From: Candidatus Zixiibacteriota bacterium
Lineage (GTDB): Bacteria > Zixibacteria > MSB-5A5 > GN15 > JACZUZ01
Direction: 5' to 3'
Assembly (NCBI GenBank): GCA_024280835.1
Contig: JAJRPJ010000012.1
Coordinates: 310,001-374,000 of the forward strand
Length of the DNA: 64,000 nucleotides
Shown: positions 1-11,892 of the stretch, in pieces
How positions within the stretch are numbered: position 1 is the first letter of the stretch
Layout of the letters: every line of letters starts with the position of its first letter
Translations under genes and position numbers: made by a program
The notes under the pieces: generated by a model
The model's database searches: none
The model's input: only the letters and a program-made list of their open reading frames with translations
Told to the model about the DNA's origin: nothing

Positions 1-513
1 AATTAGTGGGTCAACGTCATAGACACCTATTCGCAACTGCCCCTGCCCAGCAAACTCCACCTCAATCGCATCACGCATTTTCTTTATCAGAAGTTCCATC
101 TTGATGGTTTCCAGAGCCAAACGCGGATTCGACGAGCGTATACGCTGCGCCTCTTCTTCAATCTTCGGATTCTGGTCAAGACGCATCTCACGAATCAATC
201 TGCTAATAACTTTCGACGACATAATCTCATTGGTCATCGCAGCCAATTGCCTACGACGATCTTCAGAAGTCATTCGCCTTGAACCGCTCTGCGCTACCAA
301 ACCACTAAGCGGCTTAATAAGTGAGGGATTATTATTGTAACTCATAATCGTCGTAGAATAGTAGGCTGGCTCCAACAAAAACGAACCGCCAATAGCCGCG
401 CTCAATGTCAAGACAAATGGCACAATTATGTACCACTTGCGCCTGCTAAGCGCCGCCAAAACATCGCGTAAATCGACTGTGGCTTGTTCACTATTGTTAG
501 ATACTGTAGACAT
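1..513 (-). CDS. Wzz-family polysaccharide chain-length determinant/co-polymerase, N-terminal part
   Basis: The gene is cut by the left window edge; 171 codons are visible from an ATG at 513. Residues about 14-50 match the start of a Wzz domain: a short cytoplasmic stretch (VDLRDVLAALSRRKW) and then one membrane segment at about 27-48. After that comes the usual periplasmic start, with helical, charged residues (EDRRRQLAAMTNEIMSS). Wzz/PCP proteins set the length of O-antigen or exopolysaccharide chains and often work with a Wza-type outer-membrane exporter, which is the next gene upstream. The second membrane segment and any tyrosine-kinase domain would lie outside the window, so a PCP-2 kinase fusion cannot be excluded. 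Confidence 0.8.
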   Translation of the reverse strand, partial: MSTVSNNSEQATVDLRDVLAALSRRKWYIIVPFVLTLSAAIGGSFLLEPAYYSTTIMSYNNNPSLIKPLSGLVAQSGSRRMTSEDRRRQLAAMTNEIMSSKVISRLIREMRLDQNPKIEEEAQRIRSSNPRLALETIKMELLIKKMRDAIEVEFAGQGQLRIGVYDVDPLI

Positions 514-661: not shown

Positions 662-1711
662 CTAGCGAAGCAATAGAAACATCGAGGTTATTCCACTAGC
701 TAAAGCAATAAAATCCCGTGCGCGACCCAACCCCAAGAACCCACGACCTCTTGCCGGCAAAACAATCGTATCCTCTGGACGAATCAAATAGCGCGCGGGC
801 TGTCCTGTCTTGGTATATTTATCTATATCAATAATAATTACCTGCGAATACTCGCCGTCCTTGCTAACCACACGCACCTTCCTCAAATCTGCGCCACTCG
901 TTGGGCCACCGGCTAGAGCAATTGCATCTAGTAAATCTATGTTCGGCTCAAGAGAATGAGTACCAGGCGTGTTAACCTCACCGATTATATAATAGAGATT
1001 CTTTAATCCAATATTACCACTGATCCTTGGCCGAAGAACTCCACCAAATGTCCTCAGAAGCTCTATCGTATCACCAGAGCGTATTGTCGGCAACTTATTT
1101 ACCTCACCCCGTGAAATCATCCCCGAAACGTCGACAATTTCGACTTTCCCCTGCTTCTCACCACCACGAATAATTCGCACCCGGGTAAGATCACCAACAT
1201 CCGTGGCGCCTCCAGCTTCATTTATCAATGCCCACAGGTCTGGTATACTTTCGAAAGTATACTTGCCAGGATCTTGAACCTCGCCAAAAACAAACACCTT
1301 ACGGCTATTGTAATTCACAACACGCAATGTCGCTTGGGAAATTTGTGGATTAATTCGTGATATCCGCCTGACGATTTCCTTTTCTAACTCAAACTCAGAC
1401 AAACCAGCGGCCTGCAATTCGCCAATAATATCAATTGCGATTTTCCCATCGTCACGAACACGTACTTGCGCATTCAGCGTCGGATCTTGCCAAAAACGGA
1501 TTTCCAGCACATCCTCAGGTCCAATCTGATAAGGCTTGGCCGACAATCCAGACGACAATGCCAAAACCCCAAGAAAGCCTGCTACTAAACACAGACTATA
1601 CTGTCTTAGTCGAATTAACAATCGAGCATTCAAGCCCAACCTCTTTTGAACAGCGCCTCTCTTAGAAACATCTCTCATCGAAAGACCAGTTTGTATTACA
1701 TCAGAAAACAT
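662..1711 (-). CDS. Wza-like polysaccharide export protein (Poly_export + SLBB)
   Basis: This is a secreted outer-membrane polysaccharide exporter. After a basic stretch and a hydrophobic signal segment ending near LSSGLSAKPY comes the Poly_export domain (starting YQIGPEDVLEIRFWQDP), with the typical VRVRDDGKIAIDIIGEL strand. Two SLBB-type repeats follow, visible as VFVFGEVQDPGKY and YYIIGEVNTPGTHSLEP, each with a downstream LLDAIALAGG/LWALINEAGG motif. No clear lipobox Cys is seen. I chose the ATG at 1711 because GGAGAA lies 9 nt upstream; an ATG at 1729 would add six residues and has no good ribosome site. It lies between the diguanylate cyclase and the Wzz-like gene, consistent with one exopolysaccharide export unit. 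Confidence 0.85.
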   Translation of the reverse strand: MFSDVIQTGLSMRDVSKRGAVQKRLGLNARLLIRLRQYSLCLVAGFLGVLALSSGLSAKPYQIGPEDVLEIRFWQDPTLNAQVRVRDDGKIAIDIIGELQAAGLSEFELEKEIVRRISRINPQISQATLRVVNYNSRKVFVFGEVQDPGKYTFESIPDLWALINEAGGATDVGDLTRVRIIRGGEKQGKVEIVDVSGMISRGEVNKLPTIRSGDTIELLRTFGGVLRPRISGNIGLKNLYYIIGEVNTPGTHSLEPNIDLLDAIALAGGPTSGADLRKVRVVSKDGEYSQVIIIDIDKYTKTGQPARYLIRPEDTIVLPARGRGFLGLGRARDFIALASGITSMFLLLR

Positions 1712-2010
1712 TTTTAGCAATTCTCCCATTTGTTCTCATACACGCAGATGACCAGTAGGTTCAATCTACTCTCTAAACTCCAACATCATCCGCCCAAATT
1801 CTCAGAGGCAATAACAACTCAATAAGTACCTTTTGCAACCCCGCAGGAAACCACCAAATTCGCTCACAGCGATAACAATAGCCAGTGGTCTCCAAATTGA
1901 AGTCCAGCACAAGTCTAACACCGTAACAATATCTCTGTAAAGGATTAAACCGCTAATCAGCAAGGAATCTCAAAGCCCCCTAGGCAAGAAACGGACCTTC
2001 TCCGCAACCT

Positions 2011-3090
2011 CTAAGTGGGCTTTTGCAGTCCAACCTCCGACTCGCTGGGAGCCATAAAGTAGCATTGATTCCGTCCTTTGCGTTTGGCCAAAAGCATAGC
2101 TCTATCCGCCTCATCAAAAAGCCCCTCCGGTGACAATCTCCCAAGAACCGATAAAGCCCCACCAATCGAAACTGTCAAATCGATACCAGTAGCTGAAGCG
2201 GAGCGTTCACGAATCAATTCCTGCCAACGATTCATCGTCCCCAGAATTGTCGCTTCACTGGCGTCAGGCAGTATAATACACAACTCATCCCCACCATAAC
2301 GGCAAGCAATATCAACCGCGCGGACATGCTCAAGAATCAGCTTCGAAAGAAACTTAAGAGCCTGATCGCCCTGTAAATGGCCTCGCGTATCATTGATTTC
2401 TTTGAAATGATCAATATCCATTATCAACACTCCAACAGAACGGCTAAAACGTTTACTGCGCTCAACCTCCTCGCTGAGACGGGCCTGCAAATAGGCCACA
2501 TTGTACAGCCCAGTCAGAGTATCTCGATTCGCCAACCGCTTGTAATGTTGAATTCGCTTTAGATTCAAAACATAAGAGCGTGTCAGATTTTCCACCGAAT
2601 CCAGCTTAGCCTCTGGTTTGGAATATGAGTCTGATTCGGTATCCGACTTGAACTCCAATCGAGAGTCGGCGCTCGTCCCCTGCCAACAAAACCTCACAGA
2701 CAAATCCTGATCTATCCAAATCAAGCGGCTAGAAGTAGCCTTGGAGTTCCCCGCAGCTATGCCATCTGCAGTAGCCTTTTGAGATTTCTCCACGGTAAAC
2801 TGCGGCAACTCAAAGCCAAACTCAGATTCAACCTTATGAGCCAAATCATTGAGTAGCGGTGTAATCTCCTCGTGCACCAACAAACTCGAAACAGCTAATT
2901 CATCAGAGTCATTATCGACTCTCGTCTCACCATCTAGTTTGGCCTGCGAAGAGATTGCTCCATTGCGTATCTGGAAGAGCCGAATAACAGCCAATAGCAA
3001 CAACAAAGCTAAGGCCGCAGTCACTGCGCTATGGTAGTCGGTTAGGAACATATCTTTTTTGCTATGATTACTACAGAAGGTTTCTTCCAA
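2011..3090 (-). CDS. membrane-anchored GGDEF diguanylate cyclase
   Basis: It is predicted to make cyclic di-GMP from GTP at the inner membrane. One membrane segment lies at about residues 21-37, followed by a region of about 130 residues with no recognised domain and then a GGDEF domain from about 185. The domain opens with DTLTGLYN (190-197), has the metal-binding DIDHFKEIND region and the active-site GGDEL at 266-270. RAVD at 257-260 sits five residues before GGDEL and fits the product-inhibition I-site, so the enzyme looks active and feedback-controlled. The reading frame opens at TTG (3090), just after an in-frame stop; ATG at 3051 is the alternative, and neither has a strong ribosome site. 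It follows the STAS gene by 25 bp and precedes the Wza-like gene, so c-di-GMP control of exopolysaccharide is a reasonable inference. Confidence 0.88.
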   Translation of the reverse strand: MEETFCSNHSKKDMFLTDYHSAVTAALALLLLLAVIRLFQIRNGAISSQAKLDGETRVDNDSDELAVSSLLVHEEITPLLNDLAHKVESEFGFELPQFTVEKSQKATADGIAAGNSKATSSRLIWIDQDLSVRFCWQGTSADSRLEFKSDTESDSYSKPEAKLDSVENLTRSYVLNLKRIQHYKRLANRDTLTGLYNVAYLQARLSEEVERSKRFSRSVGVLIMDIDHFKEINDTRGHLQGDQALKFLSKLILEHVRAVDIACRYGGDELCIILPDASEATILGTMNRWQELIRERSASATGIDLTVSIGGALSVLGRLSPEGLFDEADRAMLLAKRKGRNQCYFMAPSESEVGLQKPT

Positions 3091-3115
3091 GACAGCTCAA
3101 TTCGCCATCCCACAA

Positions 3116-3964
3116 TTAACTTGACGAACGCCGCTGATTTTGCCGCCGCGACAATTTGAATCGGGACCGCTTTGAAAGCAGACCCTCTTTCCAAAGAGCC
3201 CTAAATACCCACCACCAACCAAAATTCACGTTTGCTCTTTCACTATCAATACCTGTACTATCGAAACTCGAAGATCCACGAGTCTCTTGAAGAGCAAAAC
3301 TCAACTCGCCAATTGTTGCAAATGGATCTTCAACAATCAAAACCACCAACTTCTCATTGGGAGTTTTCGCTGAAGTTTGTGCCGCAGTTGAGGATTTTGA
3401 CTGTGAGAACTTTGCCCCAGAGAACTCAGATTGCGCTTGCCCAACTGTCGAAGCGCCGACCTGTGAACTCGTCGATTCGAACCGAGAACTACGCGAATCA
3501 CCACCCTGTTCTTTCGGAGCATCCACACCAATAGCCGCCAACTCGTCAAGTCCACCATTTGAAGTTTGCGCTGGAACTTTGGGGCCTCCCTCCAAATCTG
3601 GCATATCGACCTCAAAACTTCTCGTCGCTTGAGAGGCGCTCTCAAAACTATTCAGAATAGTATCAAACTCCAAAAGCTCAAATATTTCGCGGACATTAGG
3701 AATCATACCCGAAAGACGCAAGTCTCCAGAGTGCTCCCGAGCCTCTTTCAAATGCGAAATAAAAACACCCCACCCAGCCGACGAAATATAATCAACACCA
3801 GCCAAATCCATGACTATCCGATGCTGGTCACGACCTATCAGTCCCTCAATCGCCCGCTCAACTTCTTTGGAAGTGATCGTATCAACAATACCATCAACCC
3901 GCACAGTCGAAACAGAACTATCAGCGTCAATTATCGAAACTCGTATGTTTTCTGTCTGGCTCAT
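3116..3964 (-). CDS. STAS-domain protein (anti-anti-sigma type) with long C-terminal extension
   Basis: Residues about 8-110 form a STAS domain of the RsbV/SpoIIAA type. The segment DYISSAGWG (58-66) aligns with the D-S-S/T-G-L-G phosphorylation loop, so Ser62 is the likely phospho-acceptor; the usual Asp before it is Ser here. The domain is followed by about 170 residues that are Ser/Gln-rich and look disordered. These contain a short hydrophobic stretch (LVVLIVEDPFATIGELS) and end in a basic Arg/Lys/Ser tail. I do not recognise this extension; ordinary RsbV proteins stop at about 110 residues. The neighbour upstream encodes a kinase-phosphatase fusion that would be its natural partner. Known STAS partners of this kind control sigma factors or, in SypA, exopolysaccharide output. 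Confidence 0.82.
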   Translation of the reverse strand: MSQTENIRVSIIDADSSVSTVRVDGIVDTITSKEVERAIEGLIGRDQHRIVMDLAGVDYISSAGWGVFISHLKEAREHSGDLRLSGMIPNVREIFELLEFDTILNSFESASQATRSFEVDMPDLEGGPKVPAQTSNGGLDELAAIGVDAPKEQGGDSRSSRFESTSSQVGASTVGQAQSEFSGAKFSQSKSSTAAQTSAKTPNEKLVVLIVEDPFATIGELSFALQETRGSSSFDSTGIDSERANVNFGWWWVFRALWKEGLLSKRSRFKLSRRQNQRRSSS

Positions 3965-4215
3965 AAACCCTATATATTATATCAAATCCAAAACTTCAAA
4001 GACATCTTCCCAACAATTAGAACATCCCCTAATCACTGGTTTCCATCGTTACCCCAGCCGCAGACTCGCGCTTGATTTCACAGTCTGGCCGCCCCTGAAT
4101 ATCACCCGAAACAGCCTCAAGTACAAGTGAAACTTCAGCGCCCATTGCAGCGCCATACCCAAGAAATAGAGCGGTCAATTTCAATCATGAAATGAGGTGG
4201 GGTGAATAAATTCCT

Positions 4216-4230
4216 TCCCGAGAATCGGGA
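4216..4230. other. short hairpin in the gap before the STAS gene
   Basis: TCCCGA and TCGGGA flank a three-base loop in the 297-bp gap between the kinase-phosphatase gene and the STAS gene. It is not followed by a T-run in either direction, so it is at most a weak terminator or an mRNA processing/stability structure. I see no open reading frame worth calling in this gap. Confidence 0.3.
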
Positions 4231-4260
4231 GGATTAATAATATCTGTATAAACGTCTCAC

Positions 4261-6225
4261 TTAGGCAGACTTGCCAATCAACACCGTCATATCGTCGTCC
4301 TGACGCTCATCACCACGAAAAGAATCAAGCCGCTCCACAAGCGTTTCAATAATCTGGTTGGAGCTGGCCCCACCACTTGCAGTGGCAACCGCCTCAAGAA
4401 TCGACATCAATCCGTCTGGACCCAAACGCTCCCCTGAATCATTGACCAAATCACTTAGACCATCGGTATAGACACAAAGGAAATCACCTTCGTCCAAAAC
4501 AATACGTCTTTCTTCATGAGCTCTACCAGTAGTCAGCCCAGCGGTAAGAGCGCCAACACCAAGCGGCGCCCCTTTGGGGTTAATCAAGACAAAGTCAGAA
4601 TCGACTCTTCGATAATGAATCAACGGATTATGACCAGCGCTGGCAAAACTGAATTCACGACTGTTGGTATCATAAACAGCCAAACCAACAGTCACAAAAA
4701 CTCCATCAGGAATATCCAAAGTAATATGCTCTTCTATCTTGCTGAGTATCGTCGCTGGTGAACTCTCACCTGGAGCCTTGAAACGCACAACCGTCCGCAA
4801 AACAGACATCACCAGCGACGCAGGAACGCCCTTACCAGAGACATCAGCAACAATCAAACAATAACGACCAGAACCAATCTCAAAGACATCATATAAATCG
4901 CCCCCCAAGTGAGATGCAGGACGATAGAAAAACCCAAGATCCAATCCAGGAATAACTGGAATGCGCTTAGGCATCAAAGTCTTCTGAATCTGACCAGCGA
5001 TTTCATATTCTTTGTCGATCTTTTCAGTCGCCGCGCGTTTAGAACTATCCCGACGAATCCGTGTCATCATCTCATTGAGAGCTCGCGAGATAACAAAAAA
5101 CTCCTCGGCCCCCTCAACTGGCAACTCGCCCGCCTCGCCGCCTTTACTAAAGCTCTCCACTTGTTCAGTAATTGCAATAATCGGACGCACAAAATAATTC
5201 GACAAGAGATAGATCCCTGCGATACCCAGCAACAACTCCAAAAATATCAGCACAAAAGTCTCAGTTCGTGCAGCCGCAATCTCTTCAGCAACACTCTCAG
5301 AACTAAACTCGATTATCACTTCGCCAAGTCTACGGCCTTGACTGAGTATTGGTGTTCGCAAATAACTCATACGGACATTATCTGCAAAAAACTCTCTAAC
5401 ATTTGAGCCAGCGTCACTCACTGGTTGCAAGTTTGCAGGCGGCGTATACTGTTTCCGCAACAATTTGATATCGCGCGAATCCGCTAAAATCATTCCCGAA
5501 AGATCAACTAGTGTCACGCGCGCCAAATCGGTCGACTGAGAACTAAGGCTAAATGCCAACTCATCAAATTCCACATAAGTGCGCCCGTTAAGAATATACC
5601 GACCTGCCAAAGACGCCGCAGACTCGGTCAGCGAACTCATACTTTCAACTTGCTGGCGCTTAATGCCCGAAATCATTCGTGATTCAATAAAGTAATAAGA
5701 ACTCGCGACAATCATCAAAACAATCAAGCCCGTCACAAGTGAAAAACGCGCCCGCAAACTCATCGCCCGCCATTTGAGCGGATTCATCCGCGCAAACCTA
5801 CTCGGCGTACGTTTCGTCAAACGTAATTCATTGTAATCCTCGCCGACAATATACTGCACATCGTCCATCAGCTTCTCGATCATCATCTGACCCAGACCAC
5901 CCTTGCGAGAGGTCTCAACCAAACGTGACAATGGCACATCGCGTTTGGCTTCAGGAAAATAAGGTCGACCATTATCAGTCAGTGAGATAATCACCCGACT
6001 CGGATATGTCACAATCTTCAATTGAATCAAACCAGAAGTCGTCACATAGGCATGACGAATAATATTCGTCACCGCCTCCTCAAGAGCCAAACAAAATTTC
6101 TCAACATCTCGCGAATCAAGACGTGACTCTTCAAGCGCCTGCCGAGTGACAGCGCGCATCGTCTCCAGCGAGGCTATCTCGGCTGGGAATTCTGATTTGG
6201 TCTCTTTGATTGCTTTACTAAACAT
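4261..6225 (-). CDS. membrane partner-switch protein: RsbW-type kinase + sensor + HAMP + SpoIIE/RsbU-type phosphatase
   Basis: The order of domains is unusual. Residues about 1-140 are an HATPase_c_2 serine-kinase domain (N-box EEAVTNIIRHA at 49-59, DNGRP at 84-88, GLGQMMI at 110-116). Residues about 160-180 are a membrane helix, about 181-323 a probable periplasmic sensor of no recognised family, and about 324-345 a second helix. A HAMP-like linker follows, and about 420-654 is a PP2C-type phosphatase of the SpoIIE family. Metal-binding acidic residues are visible in GGDLYD (441-446), DVSGKG (461-466), YTDG (586-589) and DDDMTV (643-648). Both catalytic halves look intact, so one protein could phosphorylate and dephosphorylate the STAS protein encoded just downstream, according to a periplasmic signal. 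The start ATG at 6225 gives a complete kinase domain. Confidence 0.9.
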   Translation of the reverse strand: MFSKAIKETKSEFPAEIASLETMRAVTRQALEESRLDSRDVEKFCLALEEAVTNIIRHAYVTTSGLIQLKIVTYPSRVIISLTDNGRPYFPEAKRDVPLSRLVETSRKGGLGQMMIEKLMDDVQYIVGEDYNELRLTKRTPSRFARMNPLKWRAMSLRARFSLVTGLIVLMIVASSYYFIESRMISGIKRQQVESMSSLTESAASLAGRYILNGRTYVEFDELAFSLSSQSTDLARVTLVDLSGMILADSRDIKLLRKQYTPPANLQPVSDAGSNVREFFADNVRMSYLRTPILSQGRRLGEVIIEFSSESVAEEIAAARTETFVLIFLELLLGIAGIYLLSNYFVRPIIAITEQVESFSKGGEAGELPVEGAEEFFVISRALNEMMTRIRRDSSKRAATEKIDKEYEIAGQIQKTLMPKRIPVIPGLDLGFFYRPASHLGGDLYDVFEIGSGRYCLIVADVSGKGVPASLVMSVLRTVVRFKAPGESSPATILSKIEEHITLDIPDGVFVTVGLAVYDTNSREFSFASAGHNPLIHYRRVDSDFVLINPKGAPLGVGALTAGLTTGRAHEERRIVLDEGDFLCVYTDGLSDLVNDSGERLGPDGLMSILEAVATASGGASSNQIIETLVERLDSFRGDERQDDDMTVLIGKSA

Positions 6226-6340: not shown

Positions 6341-8248
6341 CTACTTATCCAGACCACCAGAAAGACGCAATTCAACTTGCTCGATATTGCGCAACAATTC
6401 CGAATTATGAGGATACTTAACAAGCAACTCGCCAAACAACTCCAACGCCTGCTCCAGTTTACCCTCACGCACCAAGGTCAAAGCCTGCGACATTTTCGCC
6501 CAATCCTCAGCATTATCCGACAATGCCCGAATACTCTCATCAGGTGAAATCGAACTCAAAATCCGCTCAAGTAACCCTTGAGCCGCAGTATTAGTTGAAT
6601 CGATAACTAATGCGCGCTCGACATAGACCTTAGCCTCGGAATACAACTCATTATCAAGTTTACGACCAGCCCTGCTCAACAAATCTGAAACCTTCAACTT
6701 AGAACCCATCGACTTCAGTGCCCCACGAATCTGCGCATCATGCGGAAACTCCCGCAATAACTCACTGTAAACATCCAGAGCCGTAACAAAATCACCAGCC
6801 GAACGAGCCTTCTTGGCTTTATCTTTTTGCGACACCTGCCATTGGTCACGATCATCAATTATACGACCAATTGCGCTTTGCACATCAGGACTATCAGGAT
6901 CCTCAGAGCGCGCCTTGTCCAAAACCCTTAGCGCCGAAACAAAACGCTTCTCTGCTCGCAATTCCTCAGCGAGTCCAACTGCAAGTTGCGAAGCCAACTC
7001 AGCAAGTGAGAGCGAATCCAATCCCGCGCTTTCAACAATCGCCAATGAGTCCGCCAAAGCCAACTCTCGAAGCTGATTCTCGATACTCAATATATGCGTT
7101 GCCGCCTCGGAGGCCTGTCCATCCAATGACTGCGATAATTGGAAATACACCAGAGCCGAATCCAAACTTCCGGCTGTCTCAAACTCAACAGCGGAATCAT
7201 ACGAATCCCGAGCGCGTTTATATCTATCTGCGCTCGCAAACTCTTCACCAAAAGTCTCTCTCTCGACCTGACGACGGCTAGCGCGCTCCTTCGCTGTCGA
7301 ACCAAACAACAAACTAAAACCAAATAAATGCGTGTCACCAATATCGCTAAGAACTCGGAACCCATAATCTATACGCACAACATCAAAAACAAACCCAGCC
7401 CCAAAAGTCGCCGAGCCGTCATCAACTCCCCCGCGAAGCGCCAAACGATTGTAAAGCAAAGCCTCAGCCCCAAATCGTCCAATCGCGCTACGATTCTCAA
7501 CCAGCTCAACTTCAGCCGAAACAGTCGCACGCAATTGACTAGATAGCCCCACCGAATCCAGCGCCAATCCAAATTGCGTCGAAACCAATTGATTCTCACC
7601 AGTGGCGCCGACATTAATATCCGATGAGACAACATCACGAATAACAACTCCAGCGCGTAGATAATCTTTGCGAGCGCCAAAACCCAAATCCAAACCAAAG
7701 CCATAATCCTGACTACCAAATAACGACTCATAAAGCGCCTTGCCCGTGATTCCAAAACTGAAATACTTACCAACAGAACGCGCATAGCTCAAATTCGCCA
7801 GCGAAGTCGAGTAGCCAATTTGCTGTGGCGAGACAACCCAATTGTTAACCGCCGAAAAATCATCAAGCCCCAGACGAGTAAACGAAACTCCCAAAGCCCC
7901 AAGATTATCAAAATTGTGCCCCCAAGAGGCAGAATTGATTTCAGTGTCCTGAAAGAATCGCGCATGAGTCGCGTTGAACGCCTGACGGTCAAGACGCGCA
8001 AGCCAAGCGGGATTCCAAAATGTTGCATCAGCGTCATTGGCCAAGGAGACATAAGCCCCGCCCATAGACAGCGCCCGAACACCAAATCCTTGAGAGAGAA
8101 CATTACGCCCACCCGAAGCTCCAACGCCAGCCAAACAATCAGAGCTATTGAAACTAACAGCGCCAAGCGCCAGCATAACCGTCAACGCAACTCTCAACAC
8201 AACCATTCGCCGACACTGCCTCAAATTTCTGCTCAATCGATATCTCAT
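6341..8248 (-). CDS. PorV/PorQ-like outer-membrane barrel with C-terminal TPR region
   Basis: An N-terminal signal sequence ends near residue 40. The mature part begins with the signature of the PorV/UPF0164 barrel family (FGVRALSMGGAYVSLANDAD and FWNPAWLA) and continues as alternating beta-strand sequence to about residue 330. Residues about 340-635 are helical, with tetratricopeptide-like repeats (for example ALDVYSELLREFPHDAQI and ALELFGELLVKYPHNSEL). PorV-type proteins act in type IX secretion in Bacteroidota, where they escort cargo with C-terminal sorting domains. Here the ATG overlaps the stop of the giant secreted protein upstream (ATGA at 8245-8248), so the two are translationally coupled. 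The fused TPR part is not typical of PorV, and whether this organism has a type IX system cannot be seen in this window. Confidence 0.72.
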   Translation of the reverse strand: MRYRLSRNLRQCRRMVVLRVALTVMLALGAVSFNSSDCLAGVGASGGRNVLSQGFGVRALSMGGAYVSLANDADATFWNPAWLARLDRQAFNATHARFFQDTEINSASWGHNFDNLGALGVSFTRLGLDDFSAVNNWVVSPQQIGYSTSLANLSYARSVGKYFSFGITGKALYESLFGSQDYGFGLDLGFGARKDYLRAGVVIRDVVSSDINVGATGENQLVSTQFGLALDSVGLSSQLRATVSAEVELVENRSAIGRFGAEALLYNRLALRGGVDDGSATFGAGFVFDVVRIDYGFRVLSDIGDTHLFGFSLLFGSTAKERASRRQVERETFGEEFASADRYKRARDSYDSAVEFETAGSLDSALVYFQLSQSLDGQASEAATHILSIENQLRELALADSLAIVESAGLDSLSLAELASQLAVGLAEELRAEKRFVSALRVLDKARSEDPDSPDVQSAIGRIIDDRDQWQVSQKDKAKKARSAGDFVTALDVYSELLREFPHDAQIRGALKSMGSKLKVSDLLSRAGRKLDNELYSEAKVYVERALVIDSTNTAAQGLLERILSSISPDESIRALSDNAEDWAKMSQALTLVREGKLEQALELFGELLVKYPHNSELLRNIEQVELRLSGGLDK

Positions 8249-11200
8249 TTAAGAACCGCCTGTTTGAGATATGCTTTTTCACCAGTGCCCAAATTCGTCA
8301 GAACAACTACATAAACGCCATCACGCACAATCTCGCCCTGACCATTGCGACCATCCCATGCAGGCGTCTGAACTCCAGCGGCTCCAAATTGAGAACCAGA
8401 GTCAAAATTGTAGCGCCGCACAAGTTGGCCAGTCAGTGTATAGATCGCAAGCTCAATATCACTGTCGACACTAAGCGTATACGAATACTGTGTCGAACTA
8501 ATCTCAGGATTAAACGGATTATTCTGCGGCTGGAAAGACTCAACAAACGCAGCAGCGGTCAATATATATTCGCTAGACTCAAACGGCGGAGCGCCAACTG
8601 GCGCTTGCACCGCGAGCCGCGCCCCCTCGCGCGGTCCGCTAACGACATTAATTTCAATTCCATCGAGTGGCGCTCTTAGTGTAAATTTGCGCACATTACT
8701 CTTAGCCACAAACTGCGCCTCAAATCGATAAGTGACACTCTCACCGACAGGCAAATTATTCTTTGTAATATCCATCAGCAATGAATCACCAGAAACATGA
8801 AACAGCGCCACAGCCTTACCCTGATTATCAAACAACGCCGACCGATCAAGATTGATAACCGCACTCGGAGAGATTCTCTGGCCATCAAGACCACGGAAAA
8901 CAGCGACTATCCGCTCGACTTCGACATCGGCGCTCATCAGCGCAGAACTATTACTAATTTCCACAGCAAACATTTCACGCCGCTCACCAAAAACAATCGC
9001 CGTACTATCACCAGCGGTAATATTGGCATTAACCAGCAACTCGCGTTCAACCGCCGAAACAGTTTCTCCAAATGACGAACCCGCTGGCATAGTAAACTCA
9101 ACTGCCTGTGCAGTGTTCAACTCCTGAGGCTCATCCAAGATAGCTACAATCACCACCACCGAACCAGCGTTCGATGGCGCTCCAAGATTAACAGGCGCTC
9201 CGAAATCACGCACCTCAACAATCGTAGTCAAATCCAAACCAGCGCCCTTAGCGGTAATCAAAACACTGCCGCCTGAGACAACCGCTTCACCAGCATTCTC
9301 TAGACTCAAATGCAAAATCAGATCGTCACCAACTTCAATAACCCTTTGCAATCCAGCGCCATCCTCAAGATCAAGCTCAGCCACCAGTGTCAGCAATGCC
9401 GAACTCTGGACAGTCAACTGGACCTGCCTCTCAGATTCAGCTCTAAAAGCACCTGAAGTCACACTAACAGAAACATCTTCAAAGCCAGGCAACAGTCCAG
9501 CAATATATGGAATAGCAACTTCTATGGTATCGTGAGCAGCCAGAGTTCTAACATTTACAGCCGTCCCACCCAAACCCACCTGCACACCAACAATCTCGAA
9601 CTGCGCATTATTAACCAAACGCGCAATAATATTAAACTCCTGTCCAACACTCACAAACGGAAAGTTAGGAGCATCAGAGCCAAGCTCCACCAAATCAATT
9701 TGATTAAGCGGCCCAATCCGAAAAACATCAGCCCCAAGATCAAGTGTATCATTGCGCCTACTACCTTGCTCAGACACAGAAATCAAATAACGCACCCCCC
9801 AATTCGTCTCAGCAAACCGCAACGGCAACAACATTGGCGCAGAAGTTTCAATCAATCCAGTTGCCTCTGAATAACTAGCCGACACTTCAATAATCTCTGG
9901 GCCGCTATACAACTCAAGGTCTACTGCAAACACCGATGACTCATCAAAAACACCTTCAAACCCAACATTCAAACTAAACTCCACTGAGTCACCAGGACCA
10001 GCGAAACGCGGCGAAAAATCCTCAGCTCCAGCCACCAACCGAGCAGGCTCAACCAAATACAATTGCGAACTGGAGCTAGCAGTATCCTCAAACTCAAAAA
10101 CCCCATCGCTCAACCGCGCAACAACCTGCATATCATACAATCCGGCGTCTATCGAAGATGGGATCGGCGAAATCTGCGTCAGCAAAGTATCAACCCCTGT
10201 TGCCCCAACTAATGAACCGCCAACATACATTCCCCAATATTGTCCAAACTCAAACGACTCATTCTCAGCGTCAACCAAGAACAAACTCCCACCCAACACG
10301 AGCTGAACAGGGTATGGACTACTAAAACCAAATCCTCTAAAAAGAGAGTAACTTGAACGCAACAGCAACGAATCGACTTTAGGAGTCAGAATAATATGTT
10401 CATCTATATAATCTATTACTAACTGCGAATAAGTGACGAATTGACAACCTCCATCAGTGGATGTTTGCGAGATATATGTCCCAAAACCCGAAATCGACAA
10501 TGTGTCCTCAGACAATGCTGAACCAGCGCTACGAGTCATAAACTCTGGGAGTTCAAAGTCTCCAAAAACAGCTAGTGCGTCCTTCAAAACAACACGATTG
10601 CCATCAGGCAAAATCACAACCAACGAGTCTATCATCACATTGGGAATATTGATGGGCCTAAAACGAAAACGTGTAGTAACTTTCTTGTCAGTTGGCAAAA
10701 CAGCCGTCAACCGACCACCGCTGGTAATCGAAGTCATTATCCCTCCCAACGTCAACTGACGCGACGGACTAACAACAGAACCAACAGAAGCGCCAACTTC
10801 CACATCACCAAACAACCCACCAAAACGCACATCGTAAGCCGCCAAATCCAAAACACCATCGGAGTCAAAAGCAGTCACAGGTATCAAAACCGGAGCCACA
10901 TAACCATCAGAAACAGAAAGCTGAAGCAAACTATCATCACCGCCAAAGTTTCCTTTAGGATTCTCAAACTGATCAAAAGCCCGAACAATTCCGACACCGC
11001 AAATCGGCGAACCCACAAATTGCTCACGATCAATCTCAAGCTCCAAACGCGCCAAAACCCCAGCCACAACTGTAATCAAGCCGCTAGTATCTGCAGCTAA
11101 ATCCGACGAAACTGTAACCCGTCCCACGCCAACCTTAGTAGCCAACAAATTCCCTGGAGTCACAACACCCAGCGAATCACTCTCTAGCGTCAAACTCCAA

Positions 11201-11892
11201 TTCAAAGCCGAATCAGAAACAGCATTTCCATACTGATCTACAGAATTAGCGCTAAACTCCAACAAGTCTCCAGCAGTCGCTACAATATTTGCCACAGGAG
11301 TCAGTGAAACCGAAGCGGCAACATCAGGCGCCAAAATAACCTCACTCGTAAACGAAGGCCCCGCCAAAACCACAAAATCAATGTCCGACATAAACACGGT
11401 CGCCGCATAAGCCCCTGCAGTAGTGGGTAGAGTCACACCACTAATATCAATAATCCCACCCTGCCCAGCTTTTGGCGCAAAAAATGTACGCCGAAAAGTA
11501 AAAATCACGGTGTGGTCAATTATTTCAACAGCTTGAATTTCAGGATCAGGCGCAGGAGAGTCATCACTAAATGTCGCGCTAACGGCAGAGCCAAACCCAA
11601 ACGCATCAGGGAAAGTCACACCTACACGATAATCAAACGGGAATTCCAAATCGGGAGTGGTAAAACGCACCTGCAATTGAGTCGGCAGGCCTACAACCGT
11701 AGCCGACGAGAAAAGTTCAACATTCTCTAGAGCCACAGGTGTGCTATCAGCGCTGAACCTGAGATTATCCGGAATAGTATCAGCGCCGACACTCGACGCC
11801 GACCCAAATAATGATAAGGACAGAAGTAGTGACAAATAGATACATACTTGCCGAAATACATCGTCAGAATTATTTCGTTTATACGCCAACAA
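8245..11892 (-). CDS. giant secreted Ig-rich protein with FlgD-Ig/type-IX-like C-terminal domain
   Basis: This is a 1215-residue protein with an N-terminal signal (hydrophobic LSLLLSLSLFGSASSVGA, about 19-36). Nearly all of the rest is beta-rich and looks like repeated Ig-like modules; one near residues 200-275 resembles an invasin/Big-type repeat (SVDQYGNAVSDSALNWS). The C-terminus (about 1130-1215) contains NNPFNPE, then SYTLSVDSDIELAIYTLTG and WDGRNGQGEIVRDGVYVVVL, the FlgD-Ig-like fold often found at the end of surface proteins in FCB-group bacteria. Its role is probably surface or extracellular structure; no enzyme motif is seen. The first in-frame start is TTG at 11892, with a second TTG directly after it; no ATG is available near the signal peptide. 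Its stop overlaps the start of the PorV-like gene. Confidence 0.75.
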   Translation of the reverse strand: MLAYKRNNSDDVFRQVCIYLSLLLSLSLFGSASSVGADTIPDNLRFSADSTPVALENVELFSSATVVGLPTQLQVRFTTPDLEFPFDYRVGVTFPDAFGFGSAVSATFSDDSPAPDPEIQAVEIIDHTVIFTFRRTFFAPKAGQGGIIDISGVTLPTTAGAYAATVFMSDIDFVVLAGPSFTSEVILAPDVAASVSLTPVANIVATAGDLLEFSANSVDQYGNAVSDSALNWSLTLESDSLGVVTPGNLLATKVGVGRVTVSSDLAADTSGLITVVAGVLARLELEIDREQFVGSPICGVGIVRAFDQFENPKGNFGGDDSLLQLSVSDGYVAPVLIPVTAFDSDGVLDLAAYDVRFGGLFGDVEVGASVGSVVSPSRQLTLGGIMTSITSGGRLTAVLPTDKKVTTRFRFRPINIPNVMIDSLVVILPDGNRVVLKDALAVFGDFELPEFMTRSAGSALSEDTLSISGFGTYISQTSTDGGCQFVTYSQLVIDYIDEHIILTPKVDSLLLRSSYSLFRGFGFSSPYPVQLVLGGSLFLVDAENESFEFGQYWGMYVGGSLVGATGVDTLLTQISPIPSSIDAGLYDMQVVARLSDGVFEFEDTASSSSQLYLVEPARLVAGAEDFSPRFAGPGDSVEFSLNVGFEGVFDESSVFAVDLELYSGPEIIEVSASYSEATGLIETSAPMLLPLRFAETNWGVRYLISVSEQGSRRNDTLDLGADVFRIGPLNQIDLVELGSDAPNFPFVSVGQEFNIIARLVNNAQFEIVGVQVGLGGTAVNVRTLAAHDTIEVAIPYIAGLLPGFEDVSVSVTSGAFRAESERQVQLTVQSSALLTLVAELDLEDGAGLQRVIEVGDDLILHLSLENAGEAVVSGGSVLITAKGAGLDLTTIVEVRDFGAPVNLGAPSNAGSVVVIVAILDEPQELNTAQAVEFTMPAGSSFGETVSAVERELLVNANITAGDSTAIVFGERREMFAVEISNSSALMSADVEVERIVAVFRGLDGQRISPSAVINLDRSALFDNQGKAVALFHVSGDSLLMDITKNNLPVGESVTYRFEAQFVAKSNVRKFTLRAPLDGIEINVVSGPREGARLAVQAPVGAPPFESSEYILTAAAFVESFQPQNNPFNPEISSTQYSYTLSVDSDIELAIYTLTGQLVRRYNFDSGSQFGAAGVQTPAWDGRNGQGEIVRDGVYVVVLTNLGTGEKAYLKQAVLK

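Follow-up and report, generated by a model that had tools for sequence, protein, structure and literature searches.

Why would an exopolysaccharide (EPS) locus place a serine kinase and a phosphatase in a single membrane protein, next to a STAS protein and a diguanylate cyclase? The question is raised by a 64,000-nucleotide stretch of DNA from a Candidatus Zixiibacteriota bacterium (hereafter the window; contig C14 positions 310001-374000 of a 3.3-Mb genome). As an answer, which we put at about an even chance of being right, we propose a membrane-bound partner switch for an XrtA-type EPS locus, in which a STAS protein with a helix-turn-helix (HTH) tail acts on the diguanylate cyclase (DGC) and probably on DNA. 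The genes of this module all lie on the minus strand, in the order FlgD_ig protein, PorV/UPF0164-like barrel with TPRs, sensor fusion, STAS, GGDEF, Wza-like and Wzz-like.

A predicted bifunctional membrane sensor and its neighbours

A sequence-only reading of the window had described the fusion as one membrane protein carrying an RsbW-type kinase, a periplasmic sensor region with HAMP and a SpoIIE-type phosphatase, followed by a STAS protein with a phosphorylatable Ser62, a GGDEF protein with an I-site, and Wza- and Wzz-like genes. Open reading frames (ORFs) and Pfam searches place the Wza-like, GGDEF, STAS and fusion genes where it had put them, and the domains of the fusion are as described. 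The protein contains HATPase_c_2 (3e-23, aa 13-138) and SpoIIE (6e-41, aa 452-650) domains. By hydropathy, two transmembrane (TM) segments, aa ~155-173 and ~323-341, enclose an extracytoplasmic region of ~150 aa. The HAMP domain reaches 9e-5 and 23.2 bits in the window fusion, against a Pfam cut-off of 25 bits, but its relatives score well above that cut-off. Neither Pfam nor hydropathy gave a match to a receiver domain between kinase and PP2C; TM-HAMP occupies that place.

Are both activities retained? Gene order was read in 41 loci, the window and 40 relatives, and in these fusion loci the kinase residues E50/N54 of the N-box, D84/G86 of G1 and G109-G112 of G2 are at least 95% conserved. The same holds for the phosphatase residues G442-D443, D461, G464, D588-G589 and D644-D645, which include the PP2C metal/catalytic residues D443, D461, D588 and D645. 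Judged by these residues, the kinase and phosphatase enzymes are intact. Sequence relatives of the fusion in the PDB are Rv1364c, SiaA and RsbW, and the phosphatase domain matches Rv1364c best.

The STAS protein has TM1442/SpoIIAA as its PDB sequence relatives, and its S61-S62-A-G motif is invariant across loci. From our own alignment, we take Ser62 to be the homologue of SpoIIAA Ser58 and RsbV Ser56. The locus thus holds the broad components of a partner switch, genetically linked: an intact GHKL serine kinase, a PP2C phosphatase and a STAS protein with a conserved Ser/Thr. The fusion presumably acts on the adjacent STAS protein. Because the active sites are intact and the genes are linked, we suggest that the extracytoplasmic/HAMP segment would tip the fusion towards either phosphorylating or dephosphorylating Ser62.

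Does this arrangement persist beyond one genome? Conservation of the neighbourhood was the test on which the sequence-only reading had staked its proposal, and the neighbourhood is kept across the phylum. Over 133 genomes of the phylum Zixibacteria, the sensor occurs in 107, the STAS tail in 106 and both in 102. Sensor and tail lie within 6 kb of each other in 80 genomes and co-occur, though unlinked or on different contigs, in 22. Fusion homologues align nearly full length throughout the phylum, and the order PorV-sensor-STAS-DGC-Wza is retained in most of the 41 loci.

The I-site and GGDEF core of the cyclase, RxxD-X5-GG[DE]E[FL], are kept in 38/38 cyclase loci, with GGDEL in the window copy, and many solved cyclases are among the PDB sequence relatives of the GGDEF domain. 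In Pseudomonas, SiaC binds SiaD and phosphorylation of SiaC prevents binding (PMC8457831), whereas it is phosphorylated HsbA that binds the diguanylate cyclase HsbD (PMC5085249). On these precedents, the phosphorylation state of the Zixibacteria STAS protein would decide binding and activation of the adjacent cyclase. Since the two precedents are opposite in sign, we make no prediction as to the active phospho-form.

Further genes tie the module to polysaccharide. The Wza- and Wzz-like genes stand as proposed, the former with Poly_export and SLBB domains, and beyond the window edge lie the rest of Wzz, a TPR protein, a BY-kinase and a DUF3473 polysaccharide deacetylase. Against NCBIfam, the deacetylase scores 322.6 bits as an XrtA-system enzyme, where the cut-off is 276; the proteins for export and chain length and the BY-kinase also match XrtA/PEP-CTERM models, all three below cut-off. 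One exosortase is encoded in the genome, away from the locus. With an XrtA-system deacetylase, a Wza/Wzz/BY-kinase set and an exosortase, the genome has the components of an XrtA/EpsH-type EPS locus, and cyclic di-GMP (c-di-GMP) and polysaccharide export are plausible outputs of the switch.

The tail of the STAS protein and the output of the proposed switch

Does the switch act on polysaccharide directly rather than through transcription? The sequence-only reading had thought that it may, but the exclusion of transcription is unsupported because that reading overlooked a conserved HTH-like domain in the STAS protein. The STAS domain itself is real; the protein is not STAS-only. Residues ~202-281 form a second domain, of ~60 aa, whose conserved signature is DPF..(T/S)I.E..L...GWW.(V/I)F.(I/L)L....L..(R/K)RSRF; of the 106 genomes that have it, nearly all have a single copy. 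It is fused to STAS in ~70 genomes and forms its own ORF of ~100-120 aa directly after STAS in ~35, mostly of one family. We considered that the tail might be an artefact of reading through past STAS and rejected this, as 106 genomes conserve it, fused or as its own ORF.

What kind of domain is the tail? The Pfam family HTH_Tnp_Tc3_2, the HTH of Tc3 transposase, matches 25/35 tail members (best 3.9e-6), and HTH_24 matches 5/35. An AlphaFold2 model of the full STAS protein renders the tail all-helical, as four helices with block-mean pLDDT (predicted local distance difference test) of ~80-97 outside a loop insert. The tail is basic, its net charge ranging from +2 to +13 across members. As an independent line of evidence, sensors of deep-branching families bear a C-terminal extension that scored HTH_28, HTH_23 and HTH_32 in Pfam, and the STAS tail aligns full length with the second HTH of such an extension (hhalign 86.7%, P 4e-6). 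A profile built from sensor extensions only matches STAS tails (best 3e-5), and the tail profile matches a sensor. A PDB profile search with the tail returned an HTH below significance as its sole match, and neither by sequence nor by fold did the tail match a solved STAS-winged HTH (wHTH). The tail looks like a transposase-type HTH, an assignment that is good but not certain, and is probably DNA-binding.

In eight deep-branching loci (L072-L079), the sensor gene overlaps at its end with a gene for a ParA/MinD-type ATPase (e.g. L072:9301-10086, minus strand). The sensors of these loci carry a C-terminal HTH_28-HTH_32 extension of ~150 aa, then ~140 aa without assigned function.

The repressor CapS combines STAS with a wHTH, and the kinase CapK switches the binding of CapS to DNA (PMC13373217). 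With this direct precedent, the HTH tail probably binds DNA as well, most likely in its own operon, and the DGC and DNA outputs together would set polysaccharide synthesis and export. A candidate site lies in the sensor-STAS gap, where the block AAGTTTCACTTGTACTTGAG, unique in the genome, forms the imperfect dyad T(G/C)AAGT-N9-ACTTGA; its identity in two species weakly suggests an operator or promoter element. Tentatively, and with less confidence than in the switch as a whole, we suggest that the STAS-HTH protein is a DNA-binding regulator switched by serine phosphorylation, distinct from CapS and built from a transposase-type HTH, through which an envelope sensor would be linked to both c-di-GMP and EPS transcription. 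Among deep-branching families, where the sensor has a homologous HTH of its own and a ParA partner, sensor and substrate may share the same DNA at the membrane or compete for it.

Several observations weigh against a DNA-binding, STAS-switched tail. All of its Pfam scores fall under the curated cut-offs, and the window's own tail alone scored nothing; Foldseek of this small domain against the PDB gave no match. The tail is a separate small gene in the ~35 genomes described above and so does not have to be under the physical control of STAS; in that one family it may act in trans or have another role. In one family (L145:3298-5475, L146 and L147), the STAS-HTH gene is no longer beside sensor and DGC and immediately follows an NtrC-type sigma54 response regulator, while sensor-DGC-Wza are still together. 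The candidate operator AAGTTTCACTTGTACTTGAG has the support of two species, and a dyad-symmetry search of the intergenic regions of ~40 loci found nothing exceeding shuffles, only this pairwise 20-bp block in two sister species.

Could the STAS protein act on the cyclase alone, as a second-messenger switch of the Sia/Hsb kind, with the tail a protein-protein or membrane/nucleoid docking module? STAS-DGC is indeed the most persistent pairing of the locus. The two genes are adjacent without the sensor in L148, L149, L151-L153, L155 and L156 (in L149 Wza is gone and the next gene is again a DUF3473 polysaccharide deacetylase), and in L159 a STAS without tail precedes DGC-Wza-Wzz. NCBIfam matches include SiaA on HAMP-PP2C and SiaD on the stalk plus GGDEF, and fusion of the tail is dispensable in ~35 genomes. 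Of the alternatives this one survives best, yet we consider it unlikely, given a tail that is kept in 102/107 sensor genomes, is basic and matches DNA-binding HTH families.

The converse is a CapS-like switch whose output is STAS-HTH, with the DGC no more than a co-regulated gene of the operon. In its favour stand the CapS precedent (PMC13373217), the HTH tail and the conserved block of the sensor-STAS gap. We hold it improbable: STAS-DGC adjacency outlasts operon break-ups, and STAS without a tail is still linked to DGC.

A sigma-factor switch, with the RsbW domain binding an unlinked sigma factor and STAS only releasing it, seems very doubtful to us. The RsbW domain is intact and 11 sigma70-region-2 genes are encoded in the genome, but none is on the 402-kb contig, which agrees with the absence of a nearby sigma factor first remarked from the sequence. 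Such an anti-sigma factor would also be membrane-tethered; the linkage is to EPS and c-di-GMP genes, and the genome has other RsbW-STAS-PP2C sets. That general operon drift, rather than one mechanism, links these genes is hardly credible: synteny in several loci extends to folD, ymdB and rny, but sensor and STAS-HTH co-occur even where unlinked or on separate contigs, and a similar HTH is found on both.

Adjoining genes and non-coding elements

The features of the window are collected below.

Features of the proposed partner-switch locus, in window coordinates
Feature	Position	Strand	Basis
Wzz-like chain-length determinant, 5' part	1..513	-	starts ~513, runs past window to C14:309014
Wza-like polysaccharide export protein, Poly_export + SLBB	662..1729	-	Pfam, NCBIfam
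Conserved block upstream of wza, GGTTTAATCCTTTACAG.GATA.TGTTACGGT.TTAG	1915..1951	-	comparison with L044
Membrane-anchored GGDEF diguanylate cyclase, 359 aa, GGDEL	2011..3090	-	Pfam GGDEF 9e-39
I-site RAVD of diguanylate cyclase	2311..2322	-	conservation check
STAS-HTH switch protein, 282 aa	3116..3964	-	ORF, Pfam
C-terminal HTH-like domain, DPF..GWW..RSRF signature	3122..3361	-	conserved block, Pfam, structure model, profiles
STAS domain	3629..3919	-	Pfam STAS 7e-17; Foldseek to TM1442, SpoIIAA, RsbV
Ser62 codon, predicted phosphorylation site	3779..3781	-	invariant SSAG
20-bp block AAGTTTCACTTGTACTTGAG, sensor-STAS gap	4116..4137	-	identical in sister species amid divergent DNA
Bifunctional sensor, RsbW-type kinase-TM-extracytoplasmic-TM-HAMP-SpoIIE/PP2C, 654 aa	4261..6225	-	Pfam, hydropathy, full-length homologues
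SpoIIE/PP2C phosphatase domain	4276..4872	-	Pfam; metal-binding Asp intact; PDB matches Rv1364c, SiaA 6k4e
HAMP domain	5053..5208	-	Pfam 23.2 bits, under cut-off in this copy
TM1, extracytoplasmic sensor region, TM2	5203..5763	-	hydropathy
HATPase_c_2 serine-kinase domain	5812..6189	-	Pfam; N-box/G1/G2 intact; PDB match RsbW 6m36
PorV/UPF0164-like outer-membrane barrel with TPRs	6341..8248	-	Pfam; adjoins sensor upstream in most loci examined

Directly upstream of the sensor, the PorV/UPF0164-like barrel and a large secreted FlgD_ig protein fill window positions 6341-11892, a synteny that is phylum-wide; both proteins may be part of the sensor input. Elsewhere in the same genome are two more RsbW/STAS/PP2C sets, at C14:89778-91211 and C10:16801-20371 (L042, L041), one of which is a compact STAS-RsbW-PP2C cluster with a response regulator after it.

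Upstream of wza, a block of ~37 bp is nearly identical in the sister species where its flanks have diverged. It has promoter-like spacing, TTTACA-N17-TTAGAC, and is a possible promoter. A GCCGATTTTATA-like element without an Rfam match recurs ahead of wza in the DGC-wza gaps of L052-L057, one family. No c-di-GMP riboswitch or other Rfam RNA was detected in seven loci.

Relation to known partner switches

The outputs known for partner switches have been sigma factors, diguanylate cyclases or, with CapS in 2026, DNA itself. The phylum-wide module described here seems to join cyclase and DNA outputs behind a single bifunctional transmembrane sensor, with a similar HTH on both enzyme and substrate. 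Conserved as it is, the module may govern slime production at two levels, a second messenger and gene expression. A polysaccharide-locus STAS protein whose effector domain can be recognized also makes STAS targets directly testable; the mechanism of SypA in biofilm control, for example, is described as unknown (PMC4517449). Our literature search found no published description of the Zixibacteria module.

Which known system does it most resemble? The sequence-only reading had likened it to SypE/SypA of Vibrio fischeri. In SypE, which acts on the STAS protein SypA, an N-terminal serine kinase and a C-terminal PP2C flank an input domain (PMC3610818, PMC4517449), and this kinase-input-PP2C order, beside a STAS gene in a polysaccharide locus, is indeed reproduced. 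However, the input of SypE is a receiver instead of TM-HAMP, SypA is STAS-only, and the pair is described without a linked cyclase. SiaABCD and HsbR/HsbA/HsbD are closer, for in both the STAS-type protein has a diguanylate cyclase as its binding partner.

SiaABCD of Pseudomonas aeruginosa is a single locus that controls aggregation; it encodes a TM-HAMP-PP2C phosphatase, a kinase, a GGDEF cyclase and a STAS-like substrate protein that activates the cyclase directly (PMC7647112, PMC8457831). Its kinase SiaB is separate and its substrate SiaC is a DUF1987 protein with Thr68, whereas in Zixibacteria the kinase is fused and the predicted substrate is a PF01740 STAS domain with a serine. SiaABCD is without HTH tail or fused kinase, and Wza/Wzz neighbours are not described there. 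The NCBIfam equivalog scores likewise fall short, at 54.8 vs 700 bits for SiaA and 129.9 vs 290 for SiaD. In the HsbR/HsbA/HsbD system of P. aeruginosa, a STAS protein with a phosphorylatable serine binds a diguanylate cyclase (PMC5085249), and a STAS gene genetically linked to a GGDEF cyclase is also found here. Unlike the Zixibacteria module, with its fused two-TM sensor, STAS HTH tail and EPS locus, Hsb is fed by the HptB phosphorelay and is flagellar.

In CapK/CapS, an RsbW-like kinase acts by phosphorylation on a STAS protein that ends in a DNA-binding domain (PMC13373217); in Zixibacteria, such phosphorylation is predicted and the STAS tail is HTH-like. CapK, however, is an HTH-STAS-GHKL protein activated by single-stranded DNA, and the wHTH of CapS is MarR/ArsR-like. 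Their system is without phosphatase, cyclase or EPS genes, and the Zixibacteria locus has no protein of CapK architecture beside immune genes. Rv1364c-type and RsbU/RsbW/RsbV systems offer the same kinase, phosphatase and STAS modules; their output is a sigma factor, and their STAS, fused or separate, is without HTH tail. The module combines a SypE-like order, a Sia-like set of predicted activities and a CapS-like pairing of STAS with a putative DNA-binding domain, each with differences, and we therefore regard it as a new variant of partner switching that is a member of none of these systems.

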